Positions 1,383 to 53,513 of a DNA stretch of 64,000 bases are shown piece by piece; positions within the stretch are counted from its first letter, which is position 1, and each line of letters begins with the position of its first letter. The notes below the pieces were generated by a model. It was not told the origin of the DNA. It made no database searches and saw only the letters and a program-made list of their open reading frames with translations. Origin of the DNA: a virus; IMG/VR virus record IMGVR_UViG_3300050821_008688, positions 1-64,000 of that record; one strand, 5' to 3'. Both the position numbers and the translations under genes were made by a program.

Positions 1383-1865
1383 ATGGCTGACATTACTCAG
1401 GCAATTCAAATCACGTTGAAGAACGAGGGTGGGTATGTGAACAATCCGCTGGACTCGGGCGGTGCCACGAATTTTGGCATCCTTCAGCGGGATTGGCCTA
1501 GTGTGAACATAGCGGCTATTACTGCCGAGCAGGCAGCTTCTTGGTATCAGACTACGACGCAGCCGCAGCGGTTTAATAATCCGCTGTACTCACAAATTAA
1601 TTCGCAGGCGATTTTGAACAAACTTTTTGACATGGGCGTGTTATTTGGTGTTGGTAGCGCGGTGATGATGTTGCAACAGGTGTTGCAGGTTACGGCGGAT
1701 GGCGGGTTTGGTCCGGCTACGTTGGCAGCGCTGAATGCCGATGACTCTGATATGACGCTGTCGGCATATAAATCGCGACTGCATCAGCATGAGATTGGTG
1801 TCGGCGAAGCCCATCCTACGGATATTGTGTTTGAAGAGGGCTGGGGAACACGAATCGATAGTTAA
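1383..1865 (+). CDS. endolysin, GH108-type muramidase with C-terminal peptidoglycan-binding domain
   Basis: The 160-residue product begins with the glycosyl hydrolase 108 signature EGGYVNNPLDSGGATNFGI; E15 is the expected catalytic acid. The C-terminal half (about 80-125, FDMGVLFGVGSAVMMLQQ then DGGFGPATLAAL) fits the PG_binding_3 domain that accompanies this family. There is no signal peptide, so release would depend on a holin; single-span membrane proteins encoded at 1987 and 2446 are candidates. No SD precedes the ATG, which matches the leaderless promoter immediately upstream. Confidence 0.9.
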   Translation: MADITQAIQITLKNEGGYVNNPLDSGGATNFGILQRDWPSVNIAAITAEQAASWYQTTTQPQRFNNPLYSQINSQAILNKLFDMGVLFGVGSAVMMLQQVLQVTADGGFGPATLAALNADDSDMTLSAYKSRLHQHEIGVGEAHPTDIVFEEGWGTRIDS

Positions 1866-21470: not shown

Positions 21471-22904
21471 ATGGCGAATGGCGACGCACCCACGATTCAA
21501 CTACCTCCGGGCTACGAGGATGGGAAGCCCACCGCAGGTCCGCTTGCATCTCAATCTCAAACGGCGGCACCGTCTACCAGTGGTCTTACTTTACCTCCGG
21601 GATATGAAGACGGAAAGCCCACTGCGGGTCCACTAGCTACTGCACCGCAACAGCCCGGAATGCTATCGCGGGCTTGGGAAGGCGCAAAGCAGCTTGCCGC
21701 TCCCGTGGTAAATATGTTGAAACCGCCTGAAACTCCTACAGAGCAAGTTCTTCATGCAACGGCAGGTGACCCCGGCTTGATGGCATATCGTGCAGCCAAA
21801 ATGGTTACGGATACCGCAGCCGGAGTGATTAAAGCGGCGGCGACAGAATATCCGCAGGCTGTGAGAGATTATCAGCGCGCGGTAAAAGAATTTCATGCGC
21901 GGGATTATCGGAACGCGGCATCATCGGCGGCGAGTACTGCGGCAGATATTGGAGGCATACTTGAGCCACAGGCAGCTTCAGTTACGCAGGGTGCTCGTGA
22001 GATATCTGAGGGTGCGCGACCCGGTGGGAATATGATTACTCCGCTGGTACGGCAGGGCGGGCAAGCGGTACTGGCGGCAGCGGGTGCGGCTCCAGAGGCT
22101 GCGGGTGAAGCGACGGGTACAGCGGCAGAAGCGGCAGCGAGTGCTCCGGGTGCTATCTCTGATTTGGTCGGCAAGTATAATCCGTTCCGAGAGGGCGGCA
22201 GTCTCCGAGGATTAATCGCCGGTCCTGAAGAGGCAGGCGAAGCCGCTGCGCAACGTATTGCACAGCCGGGAGTCAGAGCCGCCGCCCCTCCTGTGGGGAC
22301 AAGTTTTCGTTCGGGCATTGATGTTCAAACTCCATATACGGCGGCTAAGTCTCTGTATAAAACTGTGGATGATGCGGCTAAAACAGATTTCAAAGGTCTT
22401 TACGATAAATTGGACGCTGCACAAGATGATGCTCGACTCGCAGCATCGGGCTCTCCTGAAGAAGCTAAAGCCCAGTTGAATATCAAAAATACTCAAGATG
22501 CTATTGACGATGCAAAAAAAGTCGCGGCTCAGTCAGGGGTGCCTGATGTTGATGCAACGTTAAAGGCGGCGGATGCCAAGTACGCGGAGACTCAGGCTAA
22601 TAAAGATTTCAACGCCAAGTTTTTTGGAAGAAGTGTTGAAGGGAATATAGCTCACGGCGCGCCAGAAACAATCGACGTGGACAAAGCGATTAAAACTGTA
22701 GAGGATATGGATAAGCCTAATCGGTATGGGCCATCACGTATGCAGCAAACATCTTTGGGAAAAGCAGGGACGGCCAAGTTGAAGCAAACCTTATATGATG
22801 CACGGAAGGCGGGCATCAAAGCGGTGAGTGACCGAACGTTGCGGAACAAAATACTAGCGTGGGGAATTCCCGTTGCGGGTGTTCTCTACGAAGCTACGAA
22901 ATAA
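21471..22904 (+). CDS. internal virion-like protein (477 aa)
   Basis: The N-terminus contains two copies of LPPGYEDGKPTAGPLA within 60 residues, then a long Ala-rich helical protein ending with a hydrophobic stretch (ILAWGIPVAGVLYEATK). It starts 2 nt after the previous stop. It is the last gene of the rightward virion block and its 3' end overlaps the convergent 22894 gene by 11 nt. Confidence 0.5.
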   Translation: MANGDAPTIQLPPGYEDGKPTAGPLASQSQTAAPSTSGLTLPPGYEDGKPTAGPLATAPQQPGMLSRAWEGAKQLAAPVVNMLKPPETPTEQVLHATAGDPGLMAYRAAKMVTDTAAGVIKAAATEYPQAVRDYQRAVKEFHARDYRNAASSAASTAADIGGILEPQAASVTQGAREISEGARPGGNMITPLVRQGGQAVLAAAGAAPEAAGEATGTAAEAAASAPGAISDLVGKYNPFREGGSLRGLIAGPEEAGEAAAQRIAQPGVRAAAPPVGTSFRSGIDVQTPYTAAKSLYKTVDDAAKTDFKGLYDKLDAAQDDARLAASGSPEEAKAQLNIKNTQDAIDDAKKVAAQSGVPDVDATLKAADAKYAETQANKDFNAKFFGRSVEGNIAHGAPETIDVDKAIKTVEDMDKPNRYGPSRMQQTSLGKAGTAKLKQTLYDARKAGIKAVSDRTLRNKILAWGIPVAGVLYEATK

Positions 22905-24466: not shown

Positions 24467-25519
24467 CTAGAAGTTGTCCCTTAAGTACTGGTTCAATTTA
24501 TCTAGCCTGTAGGTAGTATCTCGCAACTGCACGTTTAATGCAAGCGAATCCGCATTGAGTTGGTTGCGGAAGATGAGGGCCAGAGATGTGTCGGACCCAG
24601 AGATAGCCGTGGAGGTATCTGCGATTTTTTGGCGCTCAACTTTTAATCGGCGTAGTTCCTCGGACTGGACAGCGACTAGGTCGCTCACGATTTTGTGATA
24701 GACCTGAATGCTCTGCATTACGTCGCCGACCTGTGCTTGTTTCCAGTCGCCGTACGCTTCTTCAGATTTGTTGTAGTGTTGTGATGCCGTGTGGCTCCCG
24801 AGATTATACGTGACGGTGAAGCCCGCGTATGGGCTCCCAGTTGGCACTGCGAACGGCAGCAGCGGTTTCTCTACGCCAGCGGTTACTTGGAAATCCCAGT
24901 TGTTCAGCTTCAAAAGTTTATCTTGAGCCTTCTGGGTTTCAACGTTCGTCGCAAATTCTGCATCGGCCAGTTCGGTTAGAGACTCAGTAGAGAGTGGAGG
25001 CACGAAAATATTCGCAAGTGCCACTCGGGTGGTTTGACGTTCTGTTTCTAGCGCGAGTTTTTGTTTGCTGAGTAAATAGATGGACTGTTTTGGAATATTG
25101 TGAGCCTCCAAAATTTTTGTGTTTGCGGCGATTAACGTGTCATTCTCCGCAATCGCCGCGTTGATTAGGGTCAATTTATATCGTAATGCGTCTAATTCCA
25201 GAGCCTGCATATCAAATGTGATACGTTCTTGGACGGTGATGGAGTCTTTGTAGAGTTGGCACTGCTTTTTGCCAATGGCGATAGTCAGACTGCCTTCGCG
25301 GATGTGATTGACAGAGTCAGTGAGCCCCAAAAATAGTTGCGGCGGCGTGCCTTGGGCTGGCGTGACTCCCGCCGTGGCGACTGGCGCGCGAAGCGTAGCG
25401 CCTTGGGCTTGGGACGACTCTTCAATATAACGGCAGTACGCCGTGGTGTCTTGCGCGGATTGGCCCCAGATAGCCATTGACCACATAAGCCATGTAAAAA
25501 GAATCGCTAGGTATTTCAT
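24467..25519 (-). CDS. TolC-like outer-membrane channel candidate of the polysaccharide cassette
   Basis: The 350-residue protein has a signal peptide (MKYLAILFTWLMWSMAIWGQ), then long amphipathic helices with heptad character, a beta-hairpin-like segment GSPYAGFTVTYNLG followed by ASQHYNKSEEAYGDW, and further long helices. Helix, strand, helix repetition is the layout of TolC-family outer-membrane factors, although it is shorter than the usual 420-480 residues. It overlaps the dehydrogenase stop by 4 nt (ATGA), so it is the last cassette gene. Its role would be to carry the polymer across the outer membrane together with the 26252 protein. Family assignment needs a structure model. Confidence 0.5.
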   Translation of the reverse strand: MKYLAILFTWLMWSMAIWGQSAQDTTAYCRYIEESSQAQGATLRAPVATAGVTPAQGTPPQLFLGLTDSVNHIREGSLTIAIGKKQCQLYKDSITVQERITFDMQALELDALRYKLTLINAAIAENDTLIAANTKILEAHNIPKQSIYLLSKQKLALETERQTTRVALANIFVPPLSTESLTELADAEFATNVETQKAQDKLLKLNNWDFQVTAGVEKPLLPFAVPTGSPYAGFTVTYNLGSHTASQHYNKSEEAYGDWKQAQVGDVMQSIQVYHKIVSDLVAVQSEELRRLKVERQKIADTSTAISGSDTSLALIFRNQLNADSLALNVQLRDTTYRLDKLNQYLRDNF

Positions 25520-26238
25520 GATTTCTCCTGTTGGTCATCAACGTTGAGAATGAAATCTGCGACACGGCCATGCAGAAGTTTGGCGTTCGGTATTACGCAA
25601 TGCCCGCCAATCTTGCCGGGGAAATGTTCAAGGACCGGGCGAGCTACTGAAGACATGCCGAGTGCGGCATATCCGTCATTGTATGTGTAGTTTGATAGTT
25701 TGTAAACTACATCGAAATCCAGACCGTTTTCTTCGCAGTATCTGTGGACTTCTTTTTCAAATGCGATGCACATACCGTAGTATGTAGTGCTCCACAGTTT
25801 CAAGGCTTCGGTCGTGCTAGCCTTGGGAGTAGCGAATGTTTTGATGCCGATTGACAGAAAAATCTCAGCGGCTTCTTTGGCACGCGGGCCACCAAAAAAT
25901 TTTACGAACGTCGTTATACCCTTTGCGAGATTTGGGTGAACGCCGCGAATTGGAGAGTGAACTACGCGATTTGAAGCGATACGGCAGCATGTTCCCATTG
26001 GAACTGTTGAGTGAACGATGACCAGTCCCTCGTCAGTCAAATAATGCAGTAAATATGCCCGCACGTTTTCAATGAAATGTTCGGAGTATGGAATACAGAT
26101 GTGGATAACATCTGCTCTGATGTCTGTGGAACTGTCCATATCAATGCCAACTACTTTGAGGCCACGGTCTCGAAGAACGGAATAAACTGCGCTGCCCACT
26201 TGTCCGTTGCAACCAACGACTAGATGCTGTTGTAACAT
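25516..26238 (-). CDS. compact UDP-glucose/GDP-mannose dehydrogenase family protein
   Basis: The 240-residue protein has an N-terminal Rossmann motif GCNGQVGS (9-16), the family signature HSTVPMGT (77-83), the central helix TTEALKLWSTTYYGMCIAFE (142-161) with a following NGLDFD (171-176), and GGHC (211-214) whose C214 matches the catalytic cysteine of this family. It ends soon after, so the C-terminal UDP-binding domain of normal 400-450 residue enzymes is missing. The expected reaction is two-step NAD-dependent oxidation of a UDP-hexose to UDP-uronate. SD GGGAGGATTC fixes the start. It would feed uronic acid units to the 27264 synthase. Confidence 0.75.
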   Translation of the reverse strand: MLQQHLVVGCNGQVGSAVYSVLRDRGLKVVGIDMDSSTDIRADVIHICIPYSEHFIENVRAYLLHYLTDEGLVIVHSTVPMGTCCRIASNRVVHSPIRGVHPNLAKGITTFVKFFGGPRAKEAAEIFLSIGIKTFATPKASTTEALKLWSTTYYGMCIAFEKEVHRYCEENGLDFDVVYKLSNYTYNDGYAALGMSSVARPVLEHFPGKIGGHCVIPNAKLLHGRVADFILNVDDQQEKS

Positions 26239-26251
26239 TTGAATCCTCCCT

Positions 26252-27277
26252 TTAGAATATCCACAACGGTCGTCCGAAAAATAAGACTTTGGCTTTGCCA
26301 TCTTCTGGATTGTAGAGCGAAATTTCTGCGAGTGTGCCGCGAACGTCATCTTTGAACAGCGGATTCGCTCCGTGAACCTCGGCGGGAAACAAACGAACGA
26401 TGCGGCCCGCTTTGGAGCAAGCTACTATTCCAATCTTGCAGGAGTACAACGGAGCGTTCGGTTGCACGGCGGTGCCGTATGGCACAAACAGAAAAGTTTT
26501 GGATGGCCCAGACAATACGGCATAGACGGGACTGTCCTGTGCTGTCTGAAGGGCGTTGTCTAGGGCGCGAATTTGGTCGGTCTCGGCTTTGAGTGTCGCA
26601 GAACTGGCGCAAATTGTAATGTTGAGTTGAGAGATTTCGTCCAGTAATTCGGCGCGTTTGGTCAAAGTTTCCAGCATTTTTGTATTCGTCGGGTTGTGTT
26701 CCACAATTTGGTCGCGCAATAAAATCTCAGTGATGCGGTTGTCAGTGAATCCGTTTCTGGCTTGAGTCAGTGCCAGCTTCGCAGTTTCCGCGTCGCTCTT
26801 AGTCATTAGTCCCGTGGTCATGTCTGTATCAATTTCGCTGCGCAATGCTGCAACACTTGAGTCATCCGTGGTGTCTATATCGGATTGTTTCTGTTGGTCA
26901 AGAGAGGCAAGCGCGCGACCGCTCTCTTTAATGGCTTGGTCTTCGCGTGCGATAGCCGGGTCAGTTTTGTCGGCGACGGTTTGAAGTGCTAGTCGGTGAA
27001 TTTTCATCTCAAGAATCAGGTTGGTGAGACGTGCGGTATCAATAGCGAGAGCGTCCCGCTGTGCGTTGGAAGTCAGTACTTTGCCCAGCATGTCGAGGCT
27101 GGCCGCGTCTGAGGCTGAGAGCGTGACTGGCGCGCCCCAAGAGGATGCGGTGAGATAGTAAATGATGACTGCGCCATACGAGACCATGCCTCCAAGAATG
27201 CCATAAAGAATTGAGAGGCCAACTAAGCGGTAGAGTGTTAGAACCAAACTTGTCGCGCTTAATCTAAACTGAATCAT
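26252..27277 (-). CDS. membrane-fusion (HlyD-like) protein of the polysaccharide cassette
   Basis: The 341-residue protein has one N-terminal transmembrane helix (about 15-42), a long charged coiled-coil region (about 60-240) and a beta-rich C-terminal part (VYAVLSGPSKTFLFVPYGTA..., about 250-341). Such a helix, hairpin and barrel order is that of periplasmic adaptor proteins, and single-span HlyD-like partners accompany several processive glycosyltransferases. It overlaps the synthase gene by 14 nt, and so is co-translated with it. It would bridge the inner-membrane synthase and the TolC-like protein. Confidence 0.6.
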   Translation of the reverse strand: MIQFRLSATSLVLTLYRLVGLSILYGILGGMVSYGAVIIYYLTASSWGAPVTLSASDAASLDMLGKVLTSNAQRDALAIDTARLTNLILEMKIHRLALQTVADKTDPAIAREDQAIKESGRALASLDQQKQSDIDTTDDSSVAALRSEIDTDMTTGLMTKSDAETAKLALTQARNGFTDNRITEILLRDQIVEHNPTNTKMLETLTKRAELLDEISQLNITICASSATLKAETDQIRALDNALQTAQDSPVYAVLSGPSKTFLFVPYGTAVQPNAPLYSCKIGIVACSKAGRIVRLFPAEVHGANPLFKDDVRGTLAEISLYNPEDGKAKVLFFGRPLWIF

Positions 27278-28484
27278 TTGATTTCCTCACTTTCGGTTTT
27301 AGAGTTCTGTTGCCCCAGTCGCCGGAGTCTAAAGTGAAAATAGCCAAAGGCGCGAGCAACAGCGAATTAACAATCCACCATGTAGAATATACCAGCAACT
27401 TCAGCGGATGTCTAACAGATTGTGACGGGGTGAACTTTCGCACCAAGCAAAATACTAGAAATCCGTATCCGAAGAAAATGAGCGCGCGGTTCGGGTCTAG
27501 CCACGCGCCGGGATATCCTGCAAACAGAAGCGCGATTTGCAGAATTGAAATGAATAGCACCAGCGGCGTTAGGATGTAGACATACAGCGATTTCACGCCC
27601 AGTTTGTGAATGTGCGTGTGGACGTGGCGAACTGAAAAGAAAAAATCCCGAATTGTGGTACGTCTCCAGCGTAGTTGTTGTCCCCAATATTTTGTGAAAG
27701 TGTTTGGGACGGCGGTATAGCAAACGGCTTTCTCGTCCATGTAGGTACCCCAGCCATTCAGAAGCAGGCAGTGTGTGATGAATCGGTCTTCGCCGTCTTT
27801 GACTTGAACGCCGAACCAATTTCGGCTTTCTAGTTCTGGCCGTAGTTGTTCAAAGGCTTCGCGTCGTAGAGCGAAAGCGTAGCCGCCGATTACGCCGACC
27901 ATTCGCATCGCATTCTCAGGTTGCTTGTAGAGTTGGAACCCGAGAAAATAAATGAAGACTTGAAACGCGGTCAGCGCGTTGTCATTTGGATTGCGAACAA
28001 TCGCGGGCGCACCGACACCACCCAAACGTTTGTCTCCCAGACACGCCATTAATTCACGAATGCACGTTGGTCCCAGTGTCGTGTCGGAGTCTACAATCAT
28101 GACTATTTCGGAATCCGAGTGCGCCAGCGCGTTCAGAATGGTTTGGGTTTTACCAAGGTTTGGATTGTTGTAGAAGGCGCGCACATTTGGAAAATCTACA
28201 GCGGCTTTTGCTAGCCACTCCGCTGTGTCGTCTCCGCTGCAATCGTCGGTCACAATCATATCAATCTTGCCGGGATAATCACTGTGGGAAATACTCTCCA
28301 CTGTAGAATAGACTGCGCGGCCTTCGTTGAAAGCAGGCAACAGAATGGAGAGGGAGGGAGTATAGGAATAATCCTTGATGACTCCAACGTTCGGATGGGA
28401 AATACGCATAATCGCGCCGACCAAGTAGCGAGCGATTCCTACAATTAGCGCGATGATGGTCATCATCACCAAAAAAATCGGCAT
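27264..28484 (-). CDS. processive family 2 glycosyltransferase (HAS/NodC type)
   Basis: The 406-residue membrane protein has an N-terminal span, a GT-A domain with DDCSGDD (80-86), DSDT (132-135), GGYAFALRREA (200-210), GEDR (231-234) and QQLRW (269-273), followed by three to four spans and a WGNR motif (390-393). These residues bind UDP-sugar and the growing polymer in hyaluronan, chitin and cellulose synthases; GEDR, QQLRW and the terminal WGxR resemble hyaluronan synthase most. The enzyme would polymerise and translocate a beta-linked polysaccharide across the inner membrane. An adjacent dehydrogenase gene points to a uronate-containing product. No cyclic-di-GMP PilZ domain is present. Confidence 0.9.
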   Translation of the reverse strand: MPIFLVMMTIIALIVGIARYLVGAIMRISHPNVGVIKDYSYTPSLSILLPAFNEGRAVYSTVESISHSDYPGKIDMIVTDDCSGDDTAEWLAKAAVDFPNVRAFYNNPNLGKTQTILNALAHSDSEIVMIVDSDTTLGPTCIRELMACLGDKRLGGVGAPAIVRNPNDNALTAFQVFIYFLGFQLYKQPENAMRMVGVIGGYAFALRREAFEQLRPELESRNWFGVQVKDGEDRFITHCLLLNGWGTYMDEKAVCYTAVPNTFTKYWGQQLRWRRTTIRDFFFSVRHVHTHIHKLGVKSLYVYILTPLVLFISILQIALLFAGYPGAWLDPNRALIFFGYGFLVFCLVRKFTPSQSVRHPLKLLVYSTWWIVNSLLLAPLAIFTLDSGDWGNRTLKPKVRKSNDSV

Positions 28485-28720
28485 TAGTGTCTCGCCCTTT
28501 CTAGCTGTTTATTTCCACGCGATGTAGGGTGGTTGTCTTCGTGGTCCCAACCGCTGAAGCAGGTGTCGCAAACTCCGCGTTCCCGTTCCTCAGAGCGAAA
28601 TAGCGGAGCCCCGCAGGGTCCAACCTCGGTGACCGTCATGCGGCTGGTCTCTTTGCCGGTGTACATATCAATAGTGCCGTAGTCAATTGTTTTGCTTCGC
28701 TCAACTATGCAGGTGCTCAT
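28484..28720 (-). CDS. small Cys-containing protein heading the cassette
   Basis: The 78-residue product contains CGAPLF and CDTCFSGW. It starts after CAGGGAGAATTGAGAC and its stop touches the synthase start. It lies upstream of the cassette, so it may be co-transcribed, but its function is unknown. A lone TTGACA on the minus strand (28751-28756) may be part of its promoter. Confidence 0.55.
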   Translation of the reverse strand: MSTCIVERSKTIDYGTIDMYTGKETSRMTVTEVGPCGAPLFRSEERERGVCDTCFSGWDHEDNHPTSRGNKQLERARH

Positions 28721-28765
28721 GTCTCAATTCTCCCTGAAAGTGGGTATCGGTGTCAAGGGCAATTT

Positions 28766-28801: not shown

Positions 28802-29077
28802 GTGGAAGAACGCCGCCAGCACGACCGTTCGGAAGAGATTTTGCAGGCTATTCGTGATACACGTAAAGATGTTAACGACCATCGTCAAGAGGCGACTCTG
28901 GCTATTGGTAATTTGCGTACAGAAGTTGCTACGTTTAGAAGCAATATTGAAGTCCGAGTGAAAGCGACGGAAGACTATCAAAAAACGGATGAAAAATGGG
29001 CGCGTATCCATCACCTGTTACTTCCGCTTTACGCGATTGGACACGGTATCGCGGCTCACTTTGGCATTAGGATTTAA
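28802..29077 (+). CDS. coiled-coil protein with hydrophobic C-terminus (91 aa)
   Basis: A GTG start follows AGAGAGGAAAATCCC. The N-terminal two thirds are a charged helix (RSEEILQAIRDTRKDVNDHR), the end (HHLLLPLYAIGHGIAAHFG) could associate with membranes. It may be a spanin- or holin-like product given its late-type promoter, but this is unproven. Confidence 0.55.
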   Translation: MEERRQHDRSEEILQAIRDTRKDVNDHRQEATLAIGNLRTEVATFRSNIEVRVKATEDYQKTDEKWARIHHLLLPLYAIGHGIAAHFGIRI

Positions 29078-30359
29078 TTCCATAGAACGTTCGTGCGTAT
29101 AGTGGGGCTTTGGGTATCACTCGTACCGCAGTTGGGTCAGCCGTTACTGAGAACTTCCGCCCGCTTGGAAATTTCACTTCTACTATCACATTTGGATTTC
29201 CTGTCTTCATCACAGTGCCGCAGTATTTCGCCGCCTCGCCTGTTAAAATTTCCACGAAATCGCCAATCCGAACGCGCGCCGTTTTCTGCGCGGAGACAGA
29301 AGCCATCATTTTTAGTACATCTGCGTGTGGGACCGTTACCGCACTGACAAACTCCCCGGCGTCGTTGTAGGTTGCGGCCATCTCTGTGATGCCGCGTATG
29401 TGAGTCAGAGAGTTTAGTGCTGTCGGATTTATGCTGCGCGCTAGGATGTATCCGAATTCAAGTTCACCATTGGCGTCTGTCGGTGCGAAAATTTGCGCAG
29501 CGGTTTTGCTGAACATTTTTTGCCCGTAGCGTTGAAGCGTTGGCAGGATTGTGTTGATACGATGCTCGCTGCTAGTCTCAAACATATTCCACGAAGTATT
29601 GCGGAGCGCCGAGGTATCGCCGAACGAAAGCAGCGGCAGTTTATCAGACGGTGGTGCTTTGAAACGGCGAAGATGAACCCGCTGTAGTCGTGCTCGGCAA
29701 CTGCTACTGAGACCGCTGCGAGTCAGTGAGGCTTGGTGAGTCAGGCTGCGAAGATAGCAGCCGACCGCTAGAGCGCGAATGTCTTTTGATGCGAGCAGCT
29801 TTTTAATAGCGGGGCGGAATATTTTGCGAATCGCGGAGCGCGGAGCCTTCACAGTGTCTGCAACAAAAGCGTAACTCTGTTTCTGCGCGTACAAGAGAAT
29901 CAGGTCCGTCAAGCTGCCGTATTGCGTGTACTCTAAATTTGCCAGATACAAAATAGGACGTAGAATGCTGGCGTCTGGGTTTGTGCCGAGAACGATAAGC
30001 GCGCCGATTGCTTGCTCAATGAGGCGCAACTGTTGCCATACCCGCGTCTGAATCTCTCCGTGGGTTCTGGCAATAAAACTTTGGGATTTGCCCAGAAGGT
30101 AGTACGACAAAAACATTTCTTGCCACTCAACGCGGAGTTTTGCGAGGAGGGGGAAAAGTTTTTCGGGGTATTCTTGAGCGAACGCTCGGAAGTCAATCAG
30201 GCTGGTATTTTCGGGAATGGTTTCTGTAGAAATTAGCTCACCGTGTTTGTCTTTGCGATTGAACGCGGCTTCACTCGCTGCGTCTTCAATGCCCTCCCAG
30301 TAGGCCGGGTTGTTGTGTGGCGTATATGGTTCTAAATTGGTAGAATTATCAAAGGGCAT
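29067..30359 (-). CDS. transcription regulator candidate: sigma-region-4-like HTH plus KOW domain
   Basis: The 430-residue protein has a helix-turn-helix region at about 78-118 (EMFLSYYLLGKSQSFIARTH then TRVWQQLRLIEQAIG) that reads like a sigma region 4 or related HTH, a central helical part with basic patches, and at about 361-415 a KOW/SH3-like domain (VRIGDFVEILTGEAAKYCGT...). KOW domains occur in NusG-type factors that contact RNA polymerase or ribosomes. The gene has its own leaderless promoter whose -10 is covered by an operator, consistent with autoregulation. Candidates for its target are the class II elements or the RGTAC dyads. Function is inferred. Confidence 0.5.
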   Translation of the reverse strand: MPFDNSTNLEPYTPHNNPAYWEGIEDAASEAAFNRKDKHGELISTETIPENTSLIDFRAFAQEYPEKLFPLLAKLRVEWQEMFLSYYLLGKSQSFIARTHGEIQTRVWQQLRLIEQAIGALIVLGTNPDASILRPILYLANLEYTQYGSLTDLILLYAQKQSYAFVADTVKAPRSAIRKIFRPAIKKLLASKDIRALAVGCYLRSLTHQASLTRSGLSSSCRARLQRVHLRRFKAPPSDKLPLLSFGDTSALRNTSWNMFETSSEHRINTILPTLQRYGQKMFSKTAAQIFAPTDANGELEFGYILARSINPTALNSLTHIRGITEMAATYNDAGEFVSAVTVPHADVLKMMASVSAQKTARVRIGDFVEILTGEAAKYCGTVMKTGNPNVIVEVKFPSGRKFSVTADPTAVRVIPKAPLYARTFYGIKS

Positions 30360-30581: not shown

Positions 30582-31097
30582 TTACCTCCGATTAGCTGCG
30601 AACAAAACGTGCGCACCGTACCTGCCATCATCACCGGTTCCGTTGTACCTGTGGAGCCCTTCGCGTAATCCGCGCGGGCGAATATAATCTGCCAAAATTT
30701 TGGTGCCGATGCGGATGTTGGCTTCGGGATTTTCCAGTTCATGCCGGTTATGTCGCCACACTCGGGGATTAACCTGCATGAGCCCGATAGCGCCTTCCGT
30801 ACTTACGGCTAGCGGTCGGCAGGATGACTCTATCACAATTACGGCGGCGACGACGCGCGGCCAGATACCGTTATCCACGGCGGCGTGCCCAGCAGGCGAG
30901 GCGTAGGCGTCAGAGCAGCCGTTAGCTACCAGAACGCTTGCTGCCGCCTCTGTAGCTGCCCCGTATTCAATCTGTAGGGGTGCCAAAGCCGTTGTGTGGG
31001 CGGGTTCTGGCGTGGGTCCGGGCATATTTGCCACCTGTAGGACTAGCGCGAGGGTTGCGATGCTTACAACGACCGCGAGTGCTGTTAGGTATCTCAT
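30582..31097 (-). CDS. lytic transglycosylase, SLT family
   Basis: The 171-residue protein has an N-terminal hydrophobic signal or anchor (about 3-24) and a soluble-lytic-transglycosylase domain: catalytic E90 in VIVIESSCRP, GAIGLMQVNP (102-111), and LHRYNGTG near 149-155. It would cleave peptidoglycan between MurNAc and GlcNAc in the periplasm, helping either DNA entry, lysis or export through the cell wall. No SD; the mRNA should start at the ATG. Confidence 0.85.
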   Translation of the reverse strand: MRYLTALAVVVSIATLALVLQVANMPGPTPEPAHTTALAPLQIEYGAATEAAASVLVANGCSDAYASPAGHAAVDNGIWPRVVAAVIVIESSCRPLAVSTEGAIGLMQVNPRVWRHNRHELENPEANIRIGTKILADYIRPRGLREGLHRYNGTGDDGRYGAHVLFAANRR

Positions 31098-35969: not shown

Positions 35970-36230
35970 ATGGGTGCGTTTATTTTGGGATTGCTTGTCG
36001 GGGGCGGGCTGGCGTGGGTAGTGTCGCTGTTTGTTCGTACTCACGACGCATGGTTATTGCGTCAAGCTGTGTTTTATGGTCCGTATACGTGTTTGGAGTG
36101 CGGGCGAATGATTTGTGAGTCGTCGTTTGAAGATGGTAGGAAAGCGTACGACTACCCTGAAGACGGCCCCATCTACCCCAACACGCGATGGAACCGTCAC
36201 GAGTGTGCGGCGACGGACTACAATTACTAG
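35970..36230 (+). CDS. membrane-anchored Cys-containing protein (86 aa)
   Basis: An N-terminal transmembrane helix (MGAFILGLLVGGGLAWVVSLF) precedes CLECGRMIC and HEC, a possible zinc site. The SD GTAGGAGGAAATC is strong. It is convergent with the recombinase gene, overlapping it by 4 nt. Confidence 0.6.
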   Translation: MGAFILGLLVGGGLAWVVSLFVRTHDAWLLRQAVFYGPYTCLECGRMICESSFEDGRKAYDYPEDGPIYPNTRWNRHECAATDYNY

Positions 36231-36790
36231 GCGAACGTGATGGCGTTGACCACGGTCTGCGCGCGACTCGTGTCATTTTCCTTGAGGTAACAGAGCGCAG
36301 TGGCGGGAGACCGGTGTTGCAAGAAACCGGAGACCGCGCCGAGTCTCTGGGTCTCGTCAAATATCTTCATCGCGATTGAGTGTCGGAAGACGTGAGAGTG
36401 ACCGAAATCGCTGTGGAGCCCCGCCGCGTCGCAATAAACTTTCAGACGGTCGTTGAAATTCTGCCGATGGCTGGTGCTGAACAACAGATTCGTGCGCCGA
36501 GTCGCGGCCAGCCTGACCAGTGGCGTCATATCAAAGGCTGGGTCCGCGTCAAAGTGCAAATCCTTGAAGGCTTTGCTACCGCCCTTGCGCGCGTGAATCT
36601 TGACCACGAGACGACCGTCAGCTTCAAAAATATCCTCACCCTTGAGGCTGAGAATCTGAGAGATGCGAGCGCCGGTAAAATAGCCGAGGAGCGCAATCAG
36701 GTGGTCGTTTTTGCTGGCGTCGCTGGTCTTGCTCGCCTCGTGAATCGTGCGAAATAACTTGCTCAGGTCTTTGGTTTCGAGGTATTCCAT
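36227..36790 (-). CDS. minimal tyrosine recombinase (integrase-like)
   Basis: The 187-residue protein is a bare catalytic domain: GARISQILSLK with R42, a basic loop ARKGGSK (K69/K73), HVFRH with H133 and R136, LQHRSP with H159 and the nucleophile Y168 in ALCYLK. The N-terminal arm-binding and core-binding domains of integrases are absent. It could act in integration, dimer resolution or DNA inversion. It starts in a TAATG overlap with the gene upstream. No attachment site could be identified by eye. Confidence 0.85.
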   Translation of the reverse strand: MEYLETKDLSKLFRTIHEASKTSDASKNDHLIALLGYFTGARISQILSLKGEDIFEADGRLVVKIHARKGGSKAFKDLHFDADPAFDMTPLVRLAATRRTNLLFSTSHRQNFNDRLKVYCDAAGLHSDFGHSHVFRHSIAMKIFDETQRLGAVSGFLQHRSPATALCYLKENDTSRAQTVVNAITFA

Positions 36791-37044
36791 TAGCGCACCG
36801 CCTCGTTGAATTCCTCGTTGTCCAGTTCTTCGGTGAGGGAGCCGACGTAAGGGTCTAGCACAGGTTTCGGTGCCAAAATTTGCCCCATGAGTTCGTTGTA
36901 GAGTTTGGCCCATTTGTTGGTGTCAGAAAAAACCACGAATTTGGAATCGGTCGGGATGCCTTCAAATTCGCAGGCGCGAGCCCAGACCAAAGAAACAGAT
37001 TGATAAACCGTGATGTGTTTTGTGGTCATTGTCGTGTTCTCCAT
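36790..37044 (-). CDS. hypothetical protein, leaderless (84 aa)
   Basis: The start MENTTMTTKHITVYQ is fixed by the promoter, which places the transcription start on this ATG. The first eight codons nearly equal those of the 45095 gene (MENTIMTT), while the rest differs. It precedes the recombinase and is translationally coupled to it, so it might be a recombination directionality factor or partner; this is only context. Confidence 0.6.
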   Translation of the reverse strand: MENTTMTTKHITVYQSVSLVWARACEFEGIPTDSKFVVFSDTNKWAKLYNELMGQILAPKPVLDPYVGSLTEELDNEEFNEAVR

Positions 37045-51621: not shown

Positions 51622-51924
51622 ATGAGTCAGGAAGAAATCAGTCGTAAAGTAAGACGGACGTGCGAAGGTTGCGGGAAGGCAGTTGAATACGAGTTTATTG
51701 GAGCAACCGATGCTGCGCTTGTCGAAATGATGAGTTGGTACACGATAGTTCGGCAGTTTCTGATTAACGGTCGGCCAGAAAAACTCATGGTGCAGGCGTG
51801 TTCTATTACCTGTGTTCCAGCGGCGGCGCTAAAGTTGGAAGCAGTTCCGTCCGGGTTAGATGAGCCCGCCGACCAGATTGATTTGTCTACGTTGCAGGTC
51901 AATCCAGACCCAACGGTAAACTAA
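51622..51924 (+). CDS. zinc-finger-like protein (100 aa)
   Basis: CEGCGKAVEYEF and CSITCVPAAALKL give two Cys pairs around a helical core. The stop overlaps the GroEL start (TAATG). Confidence 0.55.
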   Translation: MSQEEISRKVRRTCEGCGKAVEYEFIGATDAALVEMMSWYTIVRQFLINGRPEKLMVQACSITCVPAAALKLEAVPSGLDEPADQIDLSTLQVNPDPTVN

Positions 51925-53513
51925 TGAGCAAAACTATCCAACATGGCGATACAGCACGTCAGTCAATTCTCCGGGGTGTTGATTTCCTCGCGGACGCGGT
52001 GAAGATTACTGAAGGTCCGCGCGGGCGCAATTGTATTTTGGGCCAGCGTGCGTTAGGACAAAGCCCGAAAGTTACGCGTGATGGTGTGACAGTTTCAAAT
52101 TACGCGGACCCGATGGACACGACTGAACAACTCGGAGCCGACCTTGTGCGCGAGGCCGCGCAGAAGACCGACAACTCCGTGGGAGATGGTACGACCGCAG
52201 CAATCGTTCTCGCGCAGGCAATGATTCACGCCGGTTTTGATTTGATAAAAGATGGCGCAAATCCGATGGCGATGGAGCGCGGAATTCACAAAGCGACCGA
52301 GGCTGTAATTGCGCGTCTTCAAAAGATGGCGGTGGAAGTTTCGGGCGAAAAAGTTTTTCAAGTCGCAACTGTGTCGGCCCACGGGGATGCGGAGATTGGT
52401 AAACTCGTTGCGACTGCGGTTGAAAAGGCGGGTAAGGATGGAGTGGTTACCGCCGAGCCGTCGTCAACGTCGGACACGTACATTGAGACGGTCGCAGGAA
52501 TTGAGCTAGAAAAGTCCAGTCTGATATCGGCGGCGTTCATTACAAACCCGGAAGAAATGAAAGCTGAGTTACCTGACTGCCGAATTCTTTTGTGGGAGGG
52601 AGTGATTGGGACAGCGAAATCATTGGTTCCGATTCTTGAGCAGGTTCATAAAACTTCAACGCCGCTGCTTATCATCGCGGGCGGATACGAGCAGGAAGCC
52701 TTGGCGTGCATCATCAACAATAAATTGAAACTGCATCTGCCGCTGATTGCCGTTCGCATGGAAGCGTATGGAGAGAGCCGAAAAAATCTGATGGCTGATA
52801 TATCAACACTGATTGGTGGCACGGAGTACACTGAAGACAAGGGGATGAAAATAGAAAACGTAAAAATTGAAAATCTAGGTTCGGCGCGTAAAGTCGTTAC
52901 GAGTATGTCAAAGACTCAAATCATCGGCGGCAAAGGTAGTCAGACTGAACTGGCTGGACGCGTTCAGCATCTTCGCGAAGCTATAGATATATCTGAACCG
53001 GTGCTAAAGCCGAGCCTCAAACGACGGCTGGCGGCGTTGCTGGGCGGCATCACGATTATCAAAGTCGGCGGCGTCACCGTCACCGAGATGGAAGAGAAGA
53101 AAGACCGAGTGGTTGATGCAATGTCGGCGGCGAAGGCCGCAGTTGAATCGGGAGTCGTGGCTGGTGGCGGAATGGCACTGTTGGAAGCCTCGCATATTCC
53201 TGTACTCAATGTTCCGAGCGGCGAAGAAGCGAAAGGTGTACAAGTGGTGCGTGTTGCGTGTCAGGCTATCGTCAAACAAATCGCGGAGAACGCGGGCGTC
53301 AGCGGCACGCTAATATTGGACCAACTGATGGCGACACCGGATTTGGGATTCAATGCGATGACTGGTGAGTTTGAAAATCTCGTCAATGCTGGAATTATTG
53401 ACCCGGTTAAGGTCGTGGTGGAATCGCTTCGGAATGCATCCGCTGTTGCGTGCAGTATTCTTACGATGGGCGCAACGGTCGCAGAGAAGTCCACGGAGAA
53501 AATCGATGGCTAA
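51924..53513 (+). CDS. groEL: GroEL-family chaperonin (Cpn60)
   Basis: The 529-residue protein aligns along the whole GroEL chain: VGDGTTAAIVLAQ with the ATP-site aspartate, DAEIGKLVATAVEKAGKDG, an apical domain with LLIIAGGYEQEALA, GGITIIKVGG, KDRVVDAMSAAKAAVESGVV with the catalytic D of the VxDA motif, and GVVAGGGMALLE. The C-terminus ends EKSTEKIDG and lacks the GGM tail. It should form a ring that folds phage proteins, perhaps the capsid, which GroEL supports in many phages. It overlaps the GroES gene by 8 nt. Confidence 0.95.
   Translation: MSKTIQHGDTARQSILRGVDFLADAVKITEGPRGRNCILGQRALGQSPKVTRDGVTVSNYADPMDTTEQLGADLVREAAQKTDNSVGDGTTAAIVLAQAMIHAGFDLIKDGANPMAMERGIHKATEAVIARLQKMAVEVSGEKVFQVATVSAHGDAEIGKLVATAVEKAGKDGVVTAEPSSTSDTYIETVAGIELEKSSLISAAFITNPEEMKAELPDCRILLWEGVIGTAKSLVPILEQVHKTSTPLLIIAGGYEQEALACIINNKLKLHLPLIAVRMEAYGESRKNLMADISTLIGGTEYTEDKGMKIENVKIENLGSARKVVTSMSKTQIIGGKGSQTELAGRVQHLREAIDISEPVLKPSLKRRLAALLGGITIIKVGGVTVTEMEEKKDRVVDAMSAAKAAVESGVVAGGGMALLEASHIPVLNVPSGEEAKGVQVVRVACQAIVKQIAENAGVSGTLILDQLMATPDLGFNAMTGEFENLVNAGIIDPVKVVVESLRNASAVACSILTMGATVAEKSTEKIDG

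Follow-up and report, generated by a model that had tools for sequence, protein, structure and literature searches.

The window analyzed here is a stretch of 64,000 nt, the first 64 kb of the 99,668-bp virus record IMGVR_UViG_3300050821_008688 (IMG/VR). Four intact, closely coupled genes are located on its minus strand at 24467-28484, and they encode a glycosyltransferase (GT), a predicted periplasmic adaptor, a short dehydrogenase-like protein and a predicted TolC-like outer-membrane channel (Table 1). An earlier reading made from the letters alone (the sequence-only reading) had proposed four minus-strand genes at this place, overlapping or nearly touching and flanked on both sides by phage genes, and this layout was confirmed. 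The record was also found to be a true phage genome, as that reading had supposed: 97 identical bases occur at both termini, a terminal repeat that marks the 99,668-bp record as a complete phage genome, and matches were obtained for the large terminase (TerL), the capsid, the DNA polymerase and a DNA-transfer protein.

Gene Organization and Expression Signals

Translation proceeds from a small open reading frame (ORF) of 78 amino acid residues to the GT, the adaptor, the dehydrogenase-like protein and the channel, with the short dehydrogenase-like gene standing between the adaptor and channel genes. The GT and adaptor genes overlap by 14 nt, the dehydrogenase-like and channel genes by 4 nt, and the starts of the cassette genes are preceded by ribosome-binding sites. 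The 78-residue ORF, which matched no Pfam family, probably heads the operon as its first gene, judging from its position. A perfect TTGACA box at 28756 was considered as a promoter and dropped, given that its -10 match falls inside the ribosome-binding site. By sequence comparison, chance can be excluded as the origin of the four ORFs, because all of them have full-length homologues, and three of these stand side by side both in bacteria and in two further phages.

Table 1. Features of the cassette, its surroundings and the phage genome
Feature	Position	Strand	Remarks
TolC-fold outer-membrane channel protein (predicted), 350 aa	24467..25519	-	N-terminal signal-like segment
Short NDP-sugar-dehydrogenase-like protein, 240 aa	25516..26238	-	Rossmann domain and central domain with Lys and GGHC
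Periplasmic adaptor (membrane-fusion-like; most likely), 341 aa	26252..27277	-	
Processive family-2 GT, NodC/hyaluronan-synthase type, 406 aa	27264..28484	-	
78-aa ORF	28484..28720	-	Ribosome-binding site AGGGAGAA; 3' end overlaps the GT start
Left boundary gene, last of the plus-strand virion-type module	21471..22904	+	Positional counterpart in sister phages
Right boundary gene	29067..30359	-	51-56% identical in 6 sister phages without the cassette, same site
GH108 endolysin	1383-1865		
SLT transglycosylase	30582-31097		
Tyrosine recombinase (phage integrase family)	36227..36913	-	PF00589, E 7.4e-14, over cut-off
GroEL chaperonin, full-length	51924-53513		PHROG 5725, E 1.6e-120; conserved in sister phages
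TerL (large terminase)			Match, E 1.5e-43
Major head protein			Match, E 2e-15
DNA polymerase			Match, E 7e-91
DNA-transfer protein			Match, E 3e-168

Glycosyltransferase, Predicted Channel and Probable Adaptor

The GT matched the Pfam GT2 family (E 4.9e-22). Among the NCBIfam models it matched NodC (9.8e-36; 123.5 bits versus a cut-off of 550) and PgaC (1.2e-27; 96.9 versus 422 bits), in both cases below the curated equivalog cut-off. When a profile of the GT family was compared with the PDB, hyaluronan synthases were the best match (1.5e-28), the membrane part included. The motifs DDCS (residue 80), DSD (132, within DSDT), GEDR (231) and QQLRW (269) are intact, and their residues are invariant throughout the family; WGNR is present at residue 390. 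Hydrophobic segments at residues 1-29, 295-329 and 334-352 correspond to one N-terminal and several C-terminal membrane segments. The protein thus has the D, DxD, ED and Q(Q/R)xRW motifs together with membrane segments flanking the catalytic domain, and by these features it is classed as a processive GT2 enzyme. The sequence-only reading had named a hyaluronan synthase/NodC-type processive GT on the basis of DSDT, GEDR, QQLRW and WGNR, and the profile matches agree with it.

A structural model of the channel protein, built on seven sequences, had a mean predicted local distance difference test score (pLDDT) of 75.8. Its secondary structure elements follow the order H-E-E-H-H-H-E-E-H-H, which is the order of helices and strand pairs in TolC. 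In the fold search, all 38 PDB matches at E<=1e-3 were to channels of the TolC/OprM family or to models of such channels (best 1.8e-9), with modest whole-chain TM-scores of 0.3-0.45. The 24467 protein therefore models as a TolC-fold channel, in agreement with the TolC-like protein proposed earlier. By sequence, no Pfam or PHROG match was found for it, and its profile gave only coiled-coil noise or no match in the PDB. Among the viral proteins of BFVD the model had no match at E<=1e-3, so a phage-encoded TolC fold seems to be new in that collection.

The adaptor model comprises an N-terminal membrane span, a long coiled-coil hairpin and a C-terminal beta domain (the last at low confidence), and its best PDB fold was EmrA (E 2.6e-3). 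Based on this model, a periplasmic adaptor resembling EmrA is the most likely identity of the 26252 protein. Its sequence profile matched coiled-coil noise or nothing in the PDB, and no PilZ domain was found with Pfam. When the adaptor profile was run against 396 Acidobacteriota genomes, the sole match outside the family was a weak one in a single genome (E 1.7e-4), and this match was a true HlyD/EmrA protein adjoining OEP and major facilitator superfamily (MFS) genes. The earlier proposal of a single-span, membrane-fusion-like protein thus stands in part: the span, the hairpin and the EmrA fold agree with it and the model does not speak against an HlyD-like protein, although the evidence is weaker than for the channel.

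Related Operons in Bacteria and Jumbo Phages

The plasmid match closest to the GT belongs to Paraburkholderia PGU19, and through it an operon was reached in which every part has a homologue; seven further Burkholderiales loci, one of them on a short contig, were obtained by a genome scan. These loci (L108-L115) contain the GT, the adaptor, the channel and a full-length gene of the UDP-glucose dehydrogenase (UGDH) family in varying order, often together with a GH16 gene. The adaptor profile matched 2 of 399 Burkholderiales genomes (one being the seed) and 5 of 200 genomes of one acidobacterial family. In the five acidobacterial loci (L186 and L193-L196, one cut by a contig end), GT, adaptor and channel genes follow in that order and co-directionally, and neither a dehydrogenase gene nor a homologue of the short phage protein is adjacent. 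The three window genes are homologous to this trio and likewise lie in one operon on one strand.

Compared with the bacterial operons of both groups, the phage proteins are 34-44% (GT), 24-38% (adaptor) and 16-34% (channel) identical. Among cellular copies, those of Acidobacteriota are nearest to the phage genes, both by identity (32-44%; GT 42-44%, adaptor 35-40% where it adjoins GT and channel, channel 32-36%) and in the trees. In these, the phage and acidobacterial copies were split from those of Burkholderiales with supports of 100/100 for the GT, 81/89 for the adaptor and 85/92 for the channel, the last obtained without L195. No description of a GT-adaptor-channel operon was found in the open-access literature; the trio is apparently an undescribed, rare bacterial operon with a short TolC-like channel. 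An EAL-domain gene lies just upstream of the Burkholderiales operon (L108, 2276-3595; Pfam 4.9e-33; similar in L109 and L110), hinting at control of the bacterial version by cyclic di-GMP (c-di-GMP). A frame break in the adaptor gene of L186 around 9295 and a merged GH16/GT ORF at L195 (8847-9935) are possibly assembly errors.

An alignment that included the acidobacterial GTs turned up a pair of viral contigs in one metagenome, 332 and 463 kb long. Both carry GT, adaptor and channel genes together, and the adaptor profile finds both copies directly. The 332-kb contig is identified as a jumbo myovirus by matches to a tail sheath, a phage DNA polymerase and a helicase; of 270 ORFs sampled in the 463-kb contig, 96 are shared with it at 53% mean identity, the tail sheath included. 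The two cassettes lie at the same syntenic position, next to genes for a UvrD-type helicase and PP2C. Their trio copies are 41-51% identical with intact ORFs, a divergence that implies long retention under selection. In the 463-kb contig a GH16 gene lies just upstream (Pfam 7.9e-18). Directly after the channel gene, a Ser/Gly/Asn-rich, secreted-looking protein of about 500 residues is encoded (L211:12671-14227 and L212:12577-14085); the L211 protein had no Pfam match. The sequence-only reading had suggested looking for the same four-gene order in other phages: the trio recurs in these two, whereas the dehydrogenase-like gene is missing there. That reading was thus correct for three of the four genes, and the recurrence in other phages strengthens it.

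The jumbo DNA polymerase is closest to that of the Tunturiibacter jumbo phage Tunturi_5, and the core genes of the window's phage are not close kin of the jumbo phages. In the tree, the window GT is the sister of the 332-kb copy (50% identity, support 100/98, to be read with caution for long branches); this placement would be accounted for by exchange between phages or by a common, unsampled donor. A megablast of 9 kb against phage records gave no match, and single-protein scans of viral contigs for the GT, the channel and the dehydrogenase-like protein gave none either, which is weak evidence of absence. Peptide-pattern scans from the adaptor and channel alignments likewise found no viral relative, a weak result given that the adaptor profile found the jumbo copies. 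GT matches in 'phage' records of Listeria, Enterococcus, Staphylococcus and Acinetobacter fell mostly on unannotated or bacterial-looking contigs, and no such cassette was seen in the annotated ones inspected. The CAKLQF and CAKLQH records ('Acinetobacter phage MD-2021a') carry ordinary bacterial genes (pgaABCD, photolyase) and are probably bacterial genome sequence filed as phage.

The Short Dehydrogenase-Like Protein

The start of the dehydrogenase-like gene is most likely the ATG at 26238, which lies 13 nt past the adaptor stop behind a strong ribosome-binding site, AAAGGGAGGATTCAA, rather than the longer ORF start at 26349. The protein matched TIGR03026 under the cut-off (2.6e-11). It ends after the GGHC region and lacks the C-terminal UDP-binding domain. 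Lys, Cys, Glu, Asn and Asp at the corresponding positions are catalytic in UGDHs; here the Rossmann glycines, Lys 147 and Cys 214 are retained, and Glu, Asn and Asp are replaced by Ile, Thr and Asn (SPER to SPIR, ENT to STT, VDP to PNA). The sequence-only reading had called this protein a UDP-sugar dehydrogenase with a GGHC active-site motif. The motif is present, but the name is not supported in its ordinary sense, and the term UDP-glucose dehydrogenase should not be applied to the 240-residue protein.

Intact homologues of similarly short length, 33-38% identical and with E-values as low as 7e-32, were found in 10 of 150 genomes of one acidobacterial family, and an eleventh genome gave one weak match. 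This short UGDH-like family (loci L203-L210) has about 250-290 residues and GGHCVMPN, and it also lacks the UDP-binding domain. A decayed UGDH was ruled out, given that intact short homologues show the same kind of substitutions; the residue loss is a trait of the short family, and the protein is therefore probably functional. The eight homologue loci examined are mostly exopolysaccharide-type clusters, and in several of them genes for a DegT aminotransferase, a Gfo/Idh oxidoreductase and a hexapeptide transferase adjoin the short homologue, neighbors that are reminiscent of the Wbp pathway.

An active UDP-sugar dehydrogenase, with uronic acid in the polymer, would fit the full-length UGDH-family gene of the Burkholderiales operons and the glycines, Lys and Cys retained in the phage protein. 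We regard it as doubtful, given the missing UDP-binding domain and the residue loss shared by the short family. The gene is moreover missing from the jumbo-phage copies and from beside the acidobacterial operons, which makes it an optional addition and not a core part.

Predicted Function of the Cassette

We consider the cassette to be probably a phage-borne, synthase-dependent polysaccharide synthesis-and-export unit that was acquired from the acidobacterial gene pool. In the proposed mechanism, the GT would polymerize a nucleotide sugar at the inner membrane and thread the chain across it, in the manner of hyaluronan synthase and NodC-type enzymes. The single-span adaptor would span the periplasm and dock on the TolC-like channel, which would release the polymer outside. 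The short dehydrogenase-like protein would have an accessory role, possibly in the formation or diversion of a precursor. If expression takes place in a lysogen or at a late stage of infection, the polymer could coat the cell or seed aggregation. The most likely role, as read from the genes, is thus a virus-made surface polymer in the infected or lysogenic cell; a superinfection block or protection of the producing cell would be the most likely benefit to the phage, and superinfection block, lysogen protection and matrix formation are indistinguishable from sequence.

Several points weigh against this assignment. The adaptor model is weak (pLDDT 69, predicted TM-score 0.41) and the adaptor has no Pfam HlyD match, and the Pfam OEP model is matched neither by the phage channel nor by its bacterial homologues. 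The polymer is predicted from the genes, and the host is assigned indirectly. Moreover, of five near-complete phages of the clade this one alone has the cassette, and a relative close enough for a selection test is lacking.

A glycolipid, a short oligosaccharide or a lipo-oligosaccharide could be exported instead. NodC, which makes short chito-oligosaccharides, is the closest named match of the GT, and the channel has 350 residues versus about 430 in a typical TolC. However, the best PDB matches of the GT family profile, across the membrane part, are hyaluronan synthases, and several copies have a gene for a GH16 polysaccharide hydrolase next to the GT gene; a short product is therefore judged unlikely, and a polysaccharide is preferred.

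Insertion Site, Sister Phages and Probable Host

Based on the capsid, 57 sister-phage loci were found, four of them nearly whole and many of them fragments. The cassette was found in none of these loci, many being fragments, while the capsid worked as a positive control. In the four near-whole sisters, about 0.8-2.2 kb separate the last virion-type gene from the homologue of the 29067 gene, compared with 6.2 kb in the window, where the gap contains the cassette and small ORFs. Judged from this gene order, the site is typical of a moron, and the cassette is a swappable moron beside virion genes. The window from 19.5 to 51.9 kb is a large hypervariable accessory region between the virion module and GroEL. 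Beyond this region, core genes share about 65-80% DNA identity among sister phages. No match to anti-phage defence families was found.

If the cassette were a relic, with bacterial genes picked up fortuitously and no selection on them in this phage, its single occurrence among the near-complete sister phages would be accounted for. This reading appears quite improbable, given that the ORFs are intact with ribosome-binding sites and tightly coupled despite strong divergence, and that the trio recurs independently in jumbo phages. A chimeric assembly of host DNA into the phage contig, named by the sequence-only reading as a misassembly that would undo it and conceivable for a metagenomic record with bacterial homologues, is hardly credible, since the G+C content of the cassette (0.496) is near that of the genome (0.511) and unlike that of the bacterial loci (0.57-0.69), no homologue closer than about 45% identity was found among the sampled bacteria, the insert lies between genes that are near-adjacent in sister phages, and two other phages carry the trio.

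The host of the window's phage is probably a soil member of the Acidobacteriota. This phylum is favored because the nearest isolated phage relatives are the Tunturi phages (by capsid, TerL and polymerase; Tunturiibacter phage Tunturi_3 is the closest named phage by TerL and capsid), because the nearest cellular relatives of GT, adaptor and channel are acidobacterial, and because the short dehydrogenase family occurs there (in a search confined to Acidobacteriota). The paper on the Tunturi phages lists GTs among auxiliary metabolic genes, and its main text does not mention exopolysaccharide, TolC or efflux (PMC11924767). Searches of these phages with the GT and adaptor found no such cassette. 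The tyrosine recombinase makes a temperate life style, and with it lysogenic conversion, possible for the window's phage.

Comparison with Known Systems and Implications

A virus-encoded synthase resembling hyaluronan synthase is likewise found in the chlorovirus PBCV-1, and the GT profile matches hyaluronan synthase structures such as 7sp6-7spa, which we take to be of Chlorella virus origin. PBCV-1 infects a eukaryote and has a real UGDH and, unlike the cassette, is not known to have an adaptor or an outer-membrane channel. The bacterial systems for alginate (Alg8/Alg44/AlgE), poly-N-acetylglucosamine (PgaABCD) and mixed-linkage glucan (BgsBA) also combine a processive GT2 with trans-envelope partners. 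The predicted outer-membrane exit of the phage is of the TolC type and not of the AlgE/PgaA type, and alginate-type Alg44 adaptors have a PilZ domain for c-di-GMP, which was not matched in the phage adaptor.

Phages are known to alter the surface sugars of their hosts by means of one to three gtr genes. GtrB-type O-antigen conversion genes are, like the cassette, a phage-borne GT function that alters the host surface (weak PHROG 841 match, 1.4e-11); Gtr modifies an existing polymer, whereas the cassette appears to encode a whole route of synthesis and export. No description of a cassette for polymer synthesis and trans-envelope export was found for any phage in the open-access literature. A phage that supplies synthase, adaptor and outer-membrane channel alike would make a new polymer for the cell surface de novo.

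The trio in two unrelated phage types suggests that selection favors its carriage, and the search has exposed an apparently undescribed, rare bacterial export operon. Tentatively, phages of Acidobacteriota may repeatedly acquire and keep a synthase with its own exit channel, which could give a virus-made capsule against competing phages or a matrix. Such a function would connect phages of soil with exopolysaccharide, a material that affects how soil aggregates and holds water.

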